A stretch of 64,000 nucleotides of DNA from an uncultured Lacticaseibacillus sp. Lineage in GTDB: Bacteria; Bacillota; Bacilli; Lactobacillales; Lactobacillaceae. Of the stretch, positions 3,501 to 55,871 are shown in pieces. The stretch is from positions 1 to 64,000 of the forward strand of contig CAKRNG010000009.1 in NCBI GenBank assembly GCA_934370925.1, given 5' to 3'. The notes beneath the pieces were generated by a model that saw only the letters and a list, made by a program, of their open reading frames with translations, made no database searches and was not told the DNA's origin. The position numbers were made by a program, and so were the translations under genes. The stretch's first letter is position 1. Each line of letters starts with the position of its first letter.

Positions 3501-3577
3501 TCTACCCGTTTTGCTACACTCTGTTTTCATAGTCGAGTTCCGCAAAACAGAAGATTCCGGAATACTACACTCTGTTT
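3501..3577 (-). repeat. Dispersed repeat family B, copy 1
   Basis: Read on the minus strand it contains AATCTTCTGTTTTGCGG, a CTCGACTA motif and two CAGAGTGTAG blocks. The same order with small changes occurs at 15280-15333, and part of it at 18344-18376. The copy overlaps the last codons of serA (AAC AGA GTG TAG), so the repeat supplies the serA stop codon. Confidence 0.6.
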
Positions 3578-4737
3578 CTTATTACCCGCACCCGCTGGAC
3601 CGAGGCGATTTGGCTTAGTTGGGTCACGATTGCTTCAGTGCCCGCTGCGTGTAGTTCGTTGACGTCAATCATCGTGTACGCCTCGTCTTCCCGCGCCGCG
3701 TTGCTCATGCCCTCGATGTTGATGCCCGCCGTTGCCAAGCACGTCGCAATTTGACCGACCATGTTTGGCACGTTTTTGTGCATCACGGTAATCCGGTACG
3801 GCGTTGTGAATGGCACCTGCAACGTTGGCAAATTGATACTGTGCTGAACGTTCCCGGTCTCCAAAAAATTCATAATCGTGTGCGCACCCTGCACCGCGCC
3901 GTTATCTTCTGCCTGCACCGTTGAGCCACCCAGATGAGGGGTCACCAGGATGTCTGGCCGGCCGAGAATTTCGTCATCACCGAAATCCGTCATATACCGT
4001 TCCAAGCGACCTGCATCAAGCGCTTCAACCACCGCGTGATTATCCACGATGCCCCCACGCGCGAAGTTCAAAAGCACCGCGCCATCTTTCATCTTGGTCA
4101 GTTGTTCCTGGCTAATCATTCCCGTTGTTTCCGCGTTCTTGGGTACGTGCACTGTCACATAATCCGCATCGGCAATGGCGTCTTCAAGCGTTCGTGCCCG
4201 CACCGTGCTGGTTGGGATGTGCCATGCATCATCCGCAGATAGGTACGGATCGTAACCCACAACCTTCATCCCGAGGTCACTGGCCGCGTGTGCCACGAGT
4301 GCGCCCACGTGCCCAACACCAATAACGGCCAACGTCTTGCCCATCAGCTCCGTCCCGTTAAATTGCGTCTTTTCGCGTTCCGTCCGGGTTGAAATATCCG
4401 CGCCGCTATTTTGTGCCGCGTACTTGGCTGCGGAAAACAGCTTCCGGGAGGCGATAATCAACATCGCCACAACGATTTCCTTCACCGCGTTTGCGTTACT
4501 GCCGGGCGTATTGAACACCGCCGTGCCGTTTGCGGTCGCCGCGTCGATGGGGATGTTGTTGAAGCCAGCGCCACAACGGACAATCACCTTTAAGTCTTCC
4601 GGCAAGGTTTCTTGGTACAAATCCACGGAGCGAATAAGGTATGCGTCCGCCTGTTCATCTACGTTAATGGCGTATTGGTCCGTGAATGCTTGTAAGCCTG
4701 CTTCTGCAATTGCGTTATATGTTTTTACTTGATACAT
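3565..4737 (-). CDS. serA: D-3-phosphoglycerate dehydrogenase
   Basis: Catalyses the first step of serine synthesis, NAD-dependent oxidation of 3-phosphoglycerate to 3-phosphohydroxypyruvate, in the cytosol. Visible features are the NAD fold with GVGHVG at 140-145, the conserved Arg227 (FARGGIVD) and His268 (TPHLGGST), and a C-terminal ACT domain from about residue 320 (YRITVMHKNVPNMVGQIA). With 390 residues it is the short type without the intervening domain. The ACT domain suggests allosteric feedback. It follows serC by 14 bases with a GGAGG site, so both are read from the attenuated leader upstream of serC. Its 3' end lies inside a family B repeat. Confidence 0.95.
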   Translation of the reverse strand: MYQVKTYNAIAEAGLQAFTDQYAINVDEQADAYLIRSVDLYQETLPEDLKVIVRCGAGFNNIPIDAATANGTAVFNTPGSNANAVKEIVVAMLIIASRKLFSAAKYAAQNSGADISTRTEREKTQFNGTELMGKTLAVIGVGHVGALVAHAASDLGMKVVGYDPYLSADDAWHIPTSTVRARTLEDAIADADYVTVHVPKNAETTGMISQEQLTKMKDGAVLLNFARGGIVDNHAVVEALDAGRLERYMTDFGDDEILGRPDILVTPHLGGSTVQAEDNGAVQGAHTIMNFLETGNVQHSINLPTLQVPFTTPYRITVMHKNVPNMVGQIATCLATAGINIEGMSNAAREDEAYTMIDVNELHAAGTEAIVTQLSQIASVQRVRVIRNRV

Positions 4738-4751
4738 CGTTATTCCTCCCG

Positions 4752-5834
4752 TTATTTCACGTGCTGTGCTTCGAATTCTTCCAGGAACGCAATCAGTGCG
4801 TCCACGCCATTCATTGGCATCGCGTTGTACAGACTCGCACGCAACCCCCCGACGCTTCGGTGACCCTTTAAGTTCATCAATCCACGTGCCGTTGCCTGGG
4901 CGATTGCCTCAGCATCCAATGCCGTGTCCCCCGTCATGAAGGGAATATTCGTGAGCGACCGGTCTGCCGGCGCCACGGGGTTGCTGAACAGGCGCGAGTG
5001 ATCCAGGAAGTCGTACAGCTTCCCCGACTTCGCCTCGTTGCGTCGCTGCATTTCCGCTACGCCGCCCTCCGCACGCACCCACTTCAGCACGAGGCCGAGC
5101 GCGTAGATAGCGAACACGGGTGGCGTGTTGTAGAGCGAGCGCTTCGTCATGAACAGATGGTAGTTCAACATGCTGGGAATCCCGGGCGTCTCCCGCACCA
5201 AATCTTTGCGAACGATGACCACCGTCACACCCGCGGGACCCAAGTTCTTCTGCGCACCAGCGAAAATGAGGCCAAAGTCCCGCACGTTCACCTGTTGTGC
5301 CAAGATATTTGAAGACATATCTGCAACGAGTGGTGTCCCCTGAACGTCTGGCAAGTGGCGATACATCGTGCCCTCGACCGTGTTGTTCGCGCAAATATGC
5401 AGATAATCGTATTGATCCACCGGCAGGGGCGCGGTCAATGTCGGCAAGGATGCGTACCGGGTTGCCTTTGTACTCTCCAGCACGTCCGCCTGCACGCCAA
5501 GCGCCACCGCCTCATCGTGCGCACGCGCTGCCCACTGCCCGCTGTCCAGCACCGCAATCCGCTTATGCGTCGTCGCGAGGTTCAACGGCACCGCGGCAAA
5601 CTGGCCCGTGCCCCCACCTTGGCAAAACAAGACGGCATAATCGTCTGGAATCGCCATGAGCGCCCGCAAATCTGCTTCGGCTTCCGTGATAATTTGGTCA
5701 AAATCAGCTGCGCGGTGCGATACTTCGAGAATGCTCATCCCCGACCCATTCAGCGATGGCAGTTCTGCCTGAATCTGTGCAATCACGGGCGCGGGCATCA
5801 TCGCGGGACCCGCAGCAAAGTTGTAAGTGGTCAT
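4752..5834 (-). CDS. serC: Phosphoserine aminotransferase
   Basis: Transfers the amino group of glutamate to 3-phosphohydroxypyruvate, giving phosphoserine; a PLP enzyme of class V. The N-terminal NFAAGPAMMP and the Schiff-base lysine Lys196 in AGAQKNLGPAG are diagnostic. Length is 360 residues as in the family. I chose the ATG at 5834 over an upstream in-frame extension because it has a GGAGGAAAT site and begins the conserved sequence exactly; the extension would run through the attenuator. It is the first structural gene of serC-serA. Confidence 0.95.
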   Translation of the reverse strand: MTTYNFAAGPAMMPAPVIAQIQAELPSLNGSGMSILEVSHRAADFDQIITEAEADLRALMAIPDDYAVLFCQGGGTGQFAAVPLNLATTHKRIAVLDSGQWAARAHDEAVALGVQADVLESTKATRYASLPTLTAPLPVDQYDYLHICANNTVEGTMYRHLPDVQGTPLVADMSSNILAQQVNVRDFGLIFAGAQKNLGPAGVTVVIVRKDLVRETPGIPSMLNYHLFMTKRSLYNTPPVFAIYALGLVLKWVRAEGGVAEMQRRNEAKSGKLYDFLDHSRLFSNPVAPADRSLTNIPFMTGDTALDAEAIAQATARGLMNLKGHRSVGGLRASLYNAMPMNGVDALIAFLEEFEAQHVK

Positions 5835-5860
5835 AATTTCCTCCGTATTTAAGTGGCTAA

Positions 5861-5895
5861 TAAAAAATCCCCCACAGTCAACACAACTGTGGGGG
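5861..5895 (-). terminator. Attenuator terminator in the serCA leader
   Basis: Ten-bp GC-rich stem (5869-5878 with 5886-5895), 7-base loop, then a six-U tract on the minus strand (5862-5867), ending 27 bases before serC. A competing 11-bp antiterminator is possible between 5919-5929 and 5884-5895, which uses the distal terminator arm. Confidence 0.85.
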
Positions 5896-5976
5896 TTCAT
5901 TAGCAGAATTATCTTCGGCCCCACAATTGCTAGAAAGCATTTGCGGGACTGCTTTGCACGAAACGCAAAGGACGGT

Positions 5977-6039
5977 CTACACAAATGCGGTGGTAGACCG
6001 AGAGGAGGAACTGAAGCTGTTCGTAAATAGTTGACGCAT
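5977..6039 (-). CDS. Serine-rich leader peptide of serCA (20 aa)
   Basis: A 20-codon ORF on the minus strand with a consensus GGAGGT site eight bases before its ATG. The peptide has six serines in eight residues (S-F-S-S-S-S-R-S at residues 8-15), using AGC, AGT, TCC, TCC, TCT and TCT codons. It ends inside a hairpin and precedes the terminator/antiterminator pair. This is the classic layout of an amino acid biosynthetic attenuator: low seryl-tRNA would stall ribosomes on the serine run and favour read-through into serC-serA. The ORF, ribosome site and structures are seen; the mechanism is inferred. It is too short for normal gene callers. Confidence 0.8.
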   Translation of the reverse strand: MRQLFTNSFSSSSRSTTAFV

Positions 6040-6108
6040 ATTCAGAGACCTCCAAATAGAAATTAACGGGGCGAAGTGACACAACCAGCCCGCGTTTCGT
6101 TGTTAAGC

Positions 6109-6138
6109 AATTTATCACAGATTCACAGGTTTTGTCAA
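6109..6138 (-). promoter_or_regulatory. serCA promoter
   Basis: On the minus strand, TTGACA (6133-6138) and a TAAATT/GATAAA -10 (6109-6116) with 16-18 bp spacing precede the leader. Confidence 0.75.
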
Positions 6139-6241
6139 CGGAATACGAACAAAAGTCTGCTGTTCACCAACAACCACTCGTCTTCTTGCCGGAACGTGTG
6201 CGATAATACAGCTAACAACGCAGCGAAACGAGGATAACCAC

Positions 6242-6856
6242 ATGACCACTTTCTACTTCATCCGCCACGGCCAGACAGATGCCAACGCAATGGGGCTCAA
6301 ACAGGGCACCATCAATGATAGCCGCACGCACCTCACCGCAACCGGCCGGGCGCAGGCGCAGCAGTTAGCCGACCACTTCGACATTCGGTTCGCCGACGCG
6401 CTGTTCGTGAGCCCCCTGGACAGAACGCAAGAAACCGCCGCGATTTTGAATGCCACCGCTACCCTGCCCGTCACGCTGGATGACCGCCTACTCGAAATTT
6501 CTTACGGTAGCTGGGATGGGCAACTGAATGCCGATCTCATCGCCACCCATCCCGACGTGTTCGACGCAACGCTCAAGGACGTGCTCCCAACGTACGTCGA
6601 AATTGCGGTGGGTGGCGAATCCTTCGACCAAGTCACCACACGCGTGCAGCACTTCATGACGGATTTGCAGGCGCAATTCCCGGACGGCAACTTCATCGTG
6701 GTCACACACGGCTTCACCGTCAAAGCTGCCGCAATGGTTGCCCTGCAGCCACGCGACCCCATGAGCCTGCCAGAACCCGAGAACACGAGCGTGACAAAAA
6801 TCACGTTCGACGGCACACGCTACTTCACGTGGTACTACAATCGCTTGAGTTTTTAA
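6242..6856 (+). CDS. Histidine phosphatase family protein (possible phosphoserine phosphatase)
   Basis: A 204-residue phosphatase of the phosphoglycerate-mutase-like branch 1 fold. The phosphorylated histidine His9 (FIRHGQT), Arg61 region (SPLDRTQET), Glu86 (LLEISYGSWDG) and His156 (VTHGFTV) are all present. Such proteins hydrolyse sugar or nucleoside phosphates, and some (PspA type) dephosphorylate phosphoserine. It is divergent from serC-serA, and no HAD-type serB is present here, so the missing third step of serine synthesis is a reasonable guess but not shown. A hairpin terminator follows. Confidence 0.85.
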   Translation: MTTFYFIRHGQTDANAMGLKQGTINDSRTHLTATGRAQAQQLADHFDIRFADALFVSPLDRTQETAAILNATATLPVTLDDRLLEISYGSWDGQLNADLIATHPDVFDATLKDVLPTYVEIAVGGESFDQVTTRVQHFMTDLQAQFPDGNFIVVTHGFTVKAAAMVALQPRDPMSLPEPENTSVTKITFDGTRYFTWYYNRLSF

Positions 6857-19184: not shown

Positions 19185-19616
19185 TTACCGTTTAACCAAA
19201 TGATCAATCGGGTACGGCTTGCCGAATCCGTCAAGCTGATCCGTCGTTGCCACCGTGAATCCATGCTTCAAATAAAACCGCTTTGCATGGTCATTTTGCG
19301 CATTTACGTCAATTCGGTTAATTCCGGCGTGCTGAATCAACCAAGTTAAGATTGCGTGACCGTATCCCCGCCCGATGAAATCAGGATCGAGGAAGAGCAT
19401 GACGAGCTCCGTACCTTGCGTGCCACTAAATCCCACCATGTGCGTGCCATCAGACCACACTAGCAAATCAACCGCGCCTAAACTTTCAGGGACAATTTTC
19501 TTGTAAAATTCGATATCACGTTCCGCCAAAAAGTTGTGCGTTTGCTTCACGGATTTTTCCCAGACAGCCAGAATAACCGGCTAGTCTTGTTCAGTTGCAA
19601 TCGTATGGGTTAACAT
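19185..19616 (-). pseudogene. GNAT acetyltransferase gene with an in-frame amber codon
   Basis: From an ATG at 19616 with a good AAGGAG site the frame reads MLTHTIATEQD, then TAG (19581-19583), then continues without shift as PVILAVWEKSVKQTHNFLAE and a complete GNAT domain to 19185 (acetyl-CoA loop FIGRGYGHAI; FYLKHGF). YjaB-like GNAT proteins start about 25 residues before the VxxTHxFL motif, so the ATG at 19616 is the natural start and the amber codon breaks it. A shorter product from the GTG at 19550 is possible but would lack the first strand and has no good ribosome site. Likely a recent inactivation. Confidence 0.75.
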
Positions 19617-54004: not shown

Positions 54005-54150
54005 ACGACGAAATAGAGGTCGCGGGGACGACGAATAGCTAGTGAGTGGCGGACACGATGAACCAGCTTGTAAGCAACCCCGCCGAAATGGTGATATCTT
54101 CCGCAAAGAATCACTGTTGGGCCAGTTGGCGAAAGCTGCTGGACTGTCTC
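54005..54150 (+). ncRNA. Lysine riboswitch (L box)
   Basis: The conserved order is readable: AAATAGAGGTCGCGG at the 5' side, AGTGAGTGG, CCCCGCCGAAATGGTGAT, TTGGGCCAGTTGGCG...GCTGCTGGACTGTCTC closing P1. A hairpin (54148-54173, CTCAACGG/CCGTTGAG) and a classic terminator (54218-54249) follow, so lysine binding should stop transcription of the ABC transporter. Confidence 0.87.
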
Positions 54151-54217
54151 AACGGCTCACCTGACCGTTGAGGAGCGCTATAAGGTTGGTTTTACTTTAA
54201 CGTAGAATTAATTGGCG

Positions 54218-54290: not shown

Positions 54291-55871
54291 ATGAAGAAGA
54301 TTTGGTTAACACTTGCTGGGTTGGTCGCCGCTGTCGGACTGTTTATCGGCCTCAGCACCACCACCCAAGTTTCCGCCGCAACAGACGACGGAACATTTAA
54401 AGTTGGGATGGAATGTGGTTACGCCCCTTTTAACTGGACCCAACAAACGAACGCACACGGTGCCGTTCGGATTCAGGGGACAAAGTTGTGGGCTAACGGG
54501 TACGATGTTCAAACCGCGAAGATTATCGCCAAAAAGCTCGGCAAGAAACTCGTGGTCATCAAGACGAAATGGGACGGGCTCCTGCCTTCCCTAACTTCTG
54601 GTAAGATTGACGCCATTGTTGCCGGGATGTCCCCAACCCCAGACCGGCGCAAGAGCATCGACTTTACGAACGTTTACTACAAGTCCCAGCTGACGATGGT
54701 TGTGAAGCGTAACAGTAAGTACGCGAAGGCAAACAGCATCCAAGACTTCAAGGGTGCGAAGATTACCGCGCAACTATCGACTTATCACTACGACGCCATT
54801 AAGCAAATCAAGGGCGTTCTGCGTCAGCCCGCTATGGACGATTTCCCCGCCATGCGTGTGGCGCTGGAATCCAACACCATCGATGGGTACGTCTCAGAAA
54901 TTCCAGAAGGGATCACTGCTGAAGCGGCCAACCCTGATTTGAAGATGGTACATTTCAAAAAGGGCCAGGGATTCAAGACGAGTGCCTCCGATACAGATTT
55001 GGCAATTGGGGTGCGCAAGGGCTACAAATACACCAACAAAATCAACACAATTTTAGCTGGTATGAGTGACAAGCAACGTTCCACGCGCATGGCGGACGCG
55101 GTTGCCAACCAGCCAAGCACCACCAGCAAGGGCAACTGGTTCATCAACATTCTCAAGGAATACGGCCCAATGTTACTGAGTGGGACCGGCATGACCCTGC
55201 TCATTTCACTCGTCGGGACCCTCATCGGTTTCTTGATTGGCTTGCTGGTTGGGATTATGCGGACGATTCCTGCACCCAAGAACCGAGGAAAGCGCGGACT
55301 TCTGGGCTTCTGCAACTGGTTGCTGTCCGTCTACATTGAAGTTTTCCGGGGCACACCAATGATTGTCCAAGCTGCTGTCTTCTATTACGGCGCTGCCCAG
55401 GCATTCGGGCTCAACATGGATCGTACCGTTGCTGCCCTCATTATTGTTTCCATCAACACCGGGGCCTACATCTCTGAAATTATTCGTGGGGGAATTATTT
55501 CCGTTGATCCCGGCCAATTCGAGGCTGCAAACGCACTTGGCATGACGCACTGGCAGACCATGACGAAGGTAATCCTACCCCAAGCGGTGCGCAATAGTCT
55601 CCCTGCCGTCACGAACGAATTCATCGTGAACATCAAGGATACGTCCGTGCTCTCCATCATCAGTGTTTCCGAACTGTTCTTCACTTCCGAAACAATTGCG
55701 GGACAAAACTTCCAGTTCTTCCACACCTACCTGGTTGTCTGCCTCATTTACCTGGTACTCACCTTCACGATTTCCCGCCTCTTCCGGATTATCGAAAAGC
55801 GGCTAGATGGTCCCAAGAACTACAACGTGATGAACAACCAGATGCAAGTTGAAGCACCCAAGTCAAAGTAA
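54291..55871 (+). CDS. Fused substrate-binding/permease ABC transporter subunit (likely lysine)
   Basis: A 526-residue fusion: signal peptide (1-28, cleaved near VSAATDDG), a polar amino acid binding domain (about 35-265; [46 protein letters not shown]) and a HisM-type permease domain (about 290-515; [45 protein letters not shown] is the EAA loop). This layout is like GlnP of lactic bacteria. The upstream lysine riboswitch indicates lysine as substrate, which is inference from regulation. Confidence 0.93.

Follow-up and report, generated by a model that had tools for sequence, protein, structure and literature searches.

The serCA genes of an uncultured Lacticaseibacillus species are preceded by a serine-rich leader ORF and a set of mutually exclusive RNA helices that are best explained, with a probability of roughly 0.8, as a serine-responsive, his-type transcription attenuator that acts through the translating ribosome and would report on the charging of Ser-tRNA. 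When Ser-tRNA is charged, the ribosome that translates the leader would reach the stop codon and cover segment B, leaving C to pair with D, and the E:F terminator would then halt transcription ahead of serC. When Ser-tRNA is in short supply, the ribosome would stall with codons 11-13 (UCC UCC UCU) in its A site and cover segment A; B would thereby be free to pair with C, D would be released to pair with E, and with D:E formed the terminator could not form and serCA would be transcribed. The fold computed without translation of the leader is the off state. As judged from the sequence, the testable defining features of this kind of attenuator appear to be present, one of them only in part. The positions of its parts are compiled in Table 1 and refer to the window, i.e., the whole analyzed stretch of 64,000 nucleotides (contig CAKRNG010000009.1, positions 1 to 64,000).

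Table 1. Features of the serCA locus and its putative attenuator, in window coordinates.
Feature	Position	Strand	Remarks
Predicted promoter, TTGACA-18-TAAATT, TG before the -10 element	6109..6138	-	10/12 matches; putative transcription start
Shine-Dalgarno sequence GGAGGT of the leader ORF	6048..6053	-	8 nt before the ATG; direct reading
Leader peptide ORF, MRQLFTNSFSSSSRSTTAFV	5977..6039	-	ATG start, 20 codons, 6 Ser in residues 8-15
Hairpin A:B, 6000-5993 x 5980-5973	5973..6000	-	-11.8 kcal/mol; codons 14-16 paired around the stop codon
Segment B, GCATTTGTG	5980..5988	-	Predicted partner of C when the ribosome masks A
Segment C	5937..5949	-	Alternative partners: D (9 bp and additional inner pairs) and B (9 bp)
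Segment D, antiterminator 5' strand	5918..5930	-	Sequestered by C
Segment E, shared by the terminator (5' arm) and the antiterminator (3' strand)	5883..5895	-	
Segment F (5880-5869) and T tract (5867-5862), intrinsic terminator	5862..5880	-	
serC, phosphoserine transaminase	4752..5834	-	TIGR01364 and NF003764, above cut-off
serA, phosphoglycerate dehydrogenase-like	3565..4737	-	Below NCBIfam cut-off

The genes located downstream of the terminator make the amino acid that would be sensed: SerC was assigned above the cut-off, and the gene that follows codes for a 2-hydroxyacid dehydrogenase that is serA-like by Pfam and whose best NCBIfam matches, below cut-off, are phosphoglycerate dehydrogenases. 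The nearest organism-named SerC proteins belong to Lacticaseibacillus (72-74% identity for the best four); L. pabuli, L. hulanensis and L. baoqingensis are among the relatives listed. A histidine-phosphatase gene (6242-6856, plus strand) is oriented divergently from serCA; its below-cut-off matches include phosphoserine phosphatase models, and its product might be the enzyme for the final step in making serine. The serC reading frame is open from a TTG codon at 5984 through the entire attenuator (5984-4752, minus strand), so that an automatic gene caller could put the serC start 150 bases too far upstream. N-terminally extended SerC proteins were considered as a source of leader sequences; among 119 relatives, listed out of 6,914 hits, P0112 alone carries a long extension (about 20 residues), and this is not Ser-rich.

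An earlier note on this DNA had described a 20-codon ORF on the minus strand (5977-6039) with a consensus GGAGGT ribosome site, six Ser within residues 8-15, and a stop codon situated in a hairpin, and each of these elements was recovered. Direct reading of 6039-5977 yields MRQLFTNSFSSSSRSTTAFV, with the ATG start 205 bases ahead of the serC start codon on the minus strand; the Shine-Dalgarno sequence is read at 6053-6048 with a spacing of 8 nt, and the TAG stop codon (5979-5977) falls within the 3' arm of the hairpin 6000-5993 x 5980-5973. Ser occupies residues 8, 10, 11, 12, 13 and 15, specified in this order by AGC, AGT, TCC, TCC, TCT and TCT. On the basis of the sequence, the locus hence possesses a presumably translated short ORF with a start codon and a ribosome-binding site that is rich in codons for the amino acid whose synthesis would be regulated. 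A simulation of 32,147 ORFs with lengths of 15-45 codons produced no case of six Ser in eight codons and 37 cases of at least five. The window itself contains 810 ATG ORFs of 10-45 codons if nested ones are counted separately. A Shine-Dalgarno match precedes 13 of them, at least five identical residues in eight occur in 29, and six in eight in four; the leader ORF alone combines such a run with a Shine-Dalgarno match. A second ORF with six Ser in eight, at position 19450, is without one.

Transcription of the leader would start at a predicted promoter whose match is not rarer than in shuffled sequences (one found, shuffle mean 0.8), and the same is true for the bare terminator match (one found, shuffle mean 0.7). 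The fold of the 211-nt leader has a z-score of -6.68, and none of 200 shuffles was as stable. Helices without gaps and with a minimum length of 6 bp were listed for the region 6110-5850, and the strongest ones were considered. The strong terminator that had been placed at 5861-5895 downstream of the leader ORF was confirmed as a 12-bp stem (5895-5884 x 5880-5869; -21.4 kcal/mol), which is followed by an A and six T and finishes 27 nt ahead of serC. The antiterminator proposed to compete with it is likewise present and does so, but it comprises 12 bp (D:E, 5930-5919 x 5894-5883; -19.2 kcal/mol) and not 11 bp in the exact register given before. Hairpin A, D:E and E:F had thus been seen already, whereas segment C was absent from the earlier note together with its two pairings, C:D (5949-5941 x 5926-5918; -13.0 kcal/mol for the outer part) and B:C (5988-5980 x 5945-5937; -10.3 kcal/mol). 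The helices fall into two mutually exclusive sets, A:B, C:D and E:F versus B:C and D:E, and a terminator with a mutually exclusive antiterminator is hence found ahead of the first gene. According to the model, it is segment C that would link the stalled ribosome to the terminator. Shuffles with an equally strong duplex energy numbered 1/1000 for C:D, 0/1000 for D:E, 24/1000 for B:C and 70/1000 for A. Helix X, a 12-bp pairing of the predicted transcript 5' end (6100-6089) with the spacer (5969-5958), excludes B:C in a nested fold; we rejected it as a third regulatory state, as 72 of 1000 shuffles were as strong and it is not unusual in this respect.

The dependence of the fold on the position of the ribosome was assessed by equilibrium folding of the growing RNA with the ribosome footprint held unpaired. 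At RNA end 5876 and with the default footprint, the probability of D:E was 0.97 with codons 11-13 in the A site and 0.98 with codon 14, in comparison with 0.13 without ribosome, 0.07-0.13 for codons 2-9, 0.22 for codon 10, 0.48 for codon 15, and 0.09-0.37 from codon 16 to the stop; the default footprint thus strongly favours the antiterminator solely with A-site codons 11-14 (Ser-Ser-Ser-Arg). A further folding run was in agreement for the codons it included. When the downstream footprint was set to each of eight lengths from 8 to 15 nt, D:E probabilities of 0.70-0.92 resulted for codons 12 and 13 throughout, and values of at least 0.6 were confined to codons 10-15 among the codons 7-21 that were run. 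In the corresponding shuffle control, the pairing of E with anything upstream was recorded at RNA ends 5879, 5877 and 5875, with codons 11-13 representing the on state, and the absence of a ribosome together with codons 19 and 20 representing the off state. The real sequence scored 0.89 (on) and 0.36 (off). None of 150 shuffles reached this difference of 0.53 in any of three designs, in which the segment from the stop codon to D, that from the stop codon to the terminator, or codons 14-20 were shuffled (0/450 in total; maxima 0.26, 0.34 and 0.40). After shuffling from the stop codon to D, E remained paired with upstream sequence whether the state was on or off (means 0.97 and 0.96); C is therefore needed for the off state in these computations. 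With a like protocol, the antiterminator of E. coli trpL reached 0.21-0.46 at codons 10-13 (the Trp codons) versus 0.06 without ribosome, and also 0.26-0.28 at codons 3-4; thrL responded broadly, with 0.98-1.00 at all codons 2-15 and 0.53 without ribosome, and hisL weakly, with 0.26-0.46 at the His codons, 0.28-0.39 at codons 2-7, and 0.08 without ribosome.

The predicted effect of stalling is seen at RNA ends of about 5879-5874; it is not seen at 5918-5900, nor from 5872 on. When the RNA ended at 5918 or 5900, the RNA with its 5' end at 6104 gave C:D a probability of 0.98-0.99 in each of the nine states that were computed, those with ribosomes at Ser codons included; for the RNA with its 5' end at 6072, the probability was 0.90-0.99 for codons 11-13. 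D:E did not exceed 0.01 in any state from RNA end 5872 on, and the terminator stood at 0.93 in every state at RNA end 5869. With the ribosome at the stop codon, D:E still stood at 0.37 at RNA end 5876, and the signal of the Arg codon 14 was as strong as that of the Ser codons. Since the equilibrium fold is C:D before E emerges, and D:E is lost near the completion of the terminator, the proposed switch would have to be kinetic; according to the model, either B:C must have formed first, or the strands must be exchanged before the RNA has grown by more than a few bases. It would in this respect resemble the known attenuators. For transcripts ending at 5936-5931 and a ribosome placed on codons 11-13, the probability of B:C depended on the 5' end, being 0.06-0.64 for 6104 and 0.99 for 6072, a difference that arises because helix X competes with B:C. 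The shorter of these RNAs also gave B:C probabilities of 0.43-0.51 at codons 8 and 10 and of 0.82-0.83 without ribosome, and the early B:C step is hence not specific by itself. The interpretation of the leader as a ribosome-mediated attenuator in the earlier note is thus supported: the layout is that of such an attenuator, and a ribosome mask at Ser codons 11-13 flips the predicted fold just before the terminator closes, a computational result for one sequence against which other transcript lengths speak.

A terminator with alternative stems would suit any attenuator, and the ORF at 19450 is just as rich in Ser. One might hence regard the Ser-rich leader ORF as incidental, with the intrinsic terminator acting either by itself or within a different type of attenuator, e.g., one to which an RNA-binding protein or a metabolite of low molecular weight binds. 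We consider this unlikely: a Ser run with a Shine-Dalgarno sequence ahead of genes for serine synthesis is far from what chance would produce, it is codons 11-14 that flip the fold with the default footprint, and all Rfam matches up to an E-value of 10 over the region 5700-6500 stay below their gathering scores. A T-box, a riboswitch or another Rfam family was rejected for the leader, as sub-threshold matches were the only ones obtained; the highest score was that of the trpB motif (30.4 bits versus a cut-off of 59), which aligns a hairpin and the terminator. Even less credit can be given to a leader that senses arginine, through the CGG codon 14, or a general slowing of translation instead of serine. 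Codon 14 does have the highest antiterminator probability with the default footprint, but the three consecutive Ser codons just before it yield an identical fold when the RNA ends at 5876, and a single Arg codon is opposed by six Ser codons in this stretch ahead of serCA.

The sequence consensus of the T-box is GGTGGTACCGCG; with up to two mismatches, it occurs five times in the window versus 4.75 expected occurrences, and none of these lies in the leader. T-boxes are common in Lactobacillaceae, with 291 reported for the 15 genomes of this family in one study (PMC3766115), and a serine T-box riboswitch has been described for serA of Paenibacillus polymyxa (PMC8002221). For the serCA leader, we nevertheless hold such a riboswitch to be extremely improbable, as covariance-model searches gave no match at the gathering score or up to an E-value of 10. 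The statement of the earlier note that no good T-box consensus is present holds true in the light of this search, in which the T-box model (RF00230) remained negative even at E-values up to 10.

The his attenuator follows a six-segment scheme, and the preferred reading of the serCA leader as a serine-responsive, ribosome-mediated attenuator assigns the same six segments to it (A:B, C:D and E:F versus B:C and D:E). With the enterobacterial his, thr and trp attenuators in general, it shares a leader ORF with a run of codons for the regulated amino acid, alternating helices, and a terminator that competes with an antiterminator; it differs in that serine would be the amino acid and a lactic-acid bacterium the host, and the likeness described here is one of layout. 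Leader-peptide attenuators have been reported from Firmicutes for the ilv-leu operons of Staphylococcus aureus, with mutants (PMC5794164), and Listeria monocytogenes (reviewed in PMC6123439), and they have been predicted for hisS/hisZ of bacilli (PMC2965389) and for the his operons of the Bacillus cereus group, Eubacteriales and Erysipelotrichales (PMC9413887). These systems represent the same class of mechanism outside the Proteobacteria, in a role that the T-box plays elsewhere, but they rely on codons for Leu/Ile, other branched-chain amino acids or His, not Ser, and no serC or serine leader is named in the pertinent portions of these papers. Our search of the literature by title or passages, with most subscription journals outside its coverage, found no description of a serine leader-peptide attenuator.

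Other types of RNA control have been described for serine genes. The P. polymyxa T-box (PMC8002221) resembles the proposed attenuator in acting through transcription antitermination on a serine pathway gene of a Firmicute; it differs by binding uncharged tRNA directly, and its 280-bp structure and T-box sequence are without counterpart at the serCA leader. A glycine riboswitch has been reported ahead of serC and serA for just one Clostridium species (PMC3766115), where serCA of a Firmicute is likewise controlled by RNA; this element is a ligand-binding riboswitch, whereas no Rfam riboswitch match is present at the serCA leader studied here. The alpha-proteobacterial serC element RF00517 also sits before serC-serA, but is a small two-stem element that is thought to hide the ribosome site (PMC1273637); it was not among the Rfam matches up to an E-value of 10 in a scan with the whole library.

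In the folding model, the run of three Ser codons at which the fold flips consists entirely of UCN codons, and codons 8 and 10, which are of the AGY type, are located ahead of the stretch that is sensitive. A succession of three UCN codons would be expected about 17% of the time (UCN accounts for 449 of the 808 Ser codons in 43 hand-picked genes), and their enrichment in the switch codons is suggestive only. As the fold-flipping Ser codons are all UCN and the AGY codons lie upstream of the sensitive stretch, the leader might chiefly read UCN-decoding tRNA-Ser; this reading, in which a serine-specific leader-peptide attenuator would take, in part of the Lactobacillaceae, the place of the Ser T-box of other Firmicutes, is a tentative proposal that we regard as possible but rather doubtful. 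A connection to codon identity is known from sinR of Bacillus subtilis, where serine starvation raises the ribosome density at UCN, but not at AGC/AGU codons (PMC3862929). The system is similar in its use of UCN codons, to which all switch codons 11-13 of the serCA leader belong, and differs in that it acts on the yield of SinR, with no attenuator RNA in the account given in the passages at issue. Should the serCA leader act as a serine-responsive attenuator, serine would join the amino acids sensed by ribosome-mediated attenuation, a lactic-acid bacterium would use a leader peptide where another Firmicute possesses a Ser T-box, and the contrast between the UCN switch codons and the upstream AGY codons would make the isoacceptor view of serine starvation (PMC3862929) directly testable in a natural RNA switch.

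Searches with the leader in viral contigs and in plasmids and phages gave no match, nor did a search of window positions 1-50000 against plasmids; a scan of genome contigs yielded six loci, none of them from Bacillota as judged by their titles. When SerC was compared with plasmids, 46 records were recovered, those of Enterococcus and Listeria included, all with less than 60% identity. The short ORFs upstream of eight other serC loci contain at most four Ser in eight codons (locus L002), three (L010-L012) or two (the remaining loci); locus L004, which holds no upstream DNA, and L007, apparently the same place as L001, were left out. These eight loci are distant, and the Ser counts found there neither support nor refute the proposed attenuator. 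An Rfam search at gathering scores of the fetched sequences from Listeria (L010) and Enterococcus (L011, L012) gave no match. In L011 (1475-2000), the region upstream of serC-serA on a megaplasmid of Enterococcus raffinosus is accordingly without an Rfam match, and it is also without a Ser-rich short ORF. Elsewhere in the window, a lysine riboswitch is located at 54006-54188 on the plus strand (81.3 bits), and the ORF at 54291, 3' of this element, resembles an amino-acid ABC transporter by its translation.
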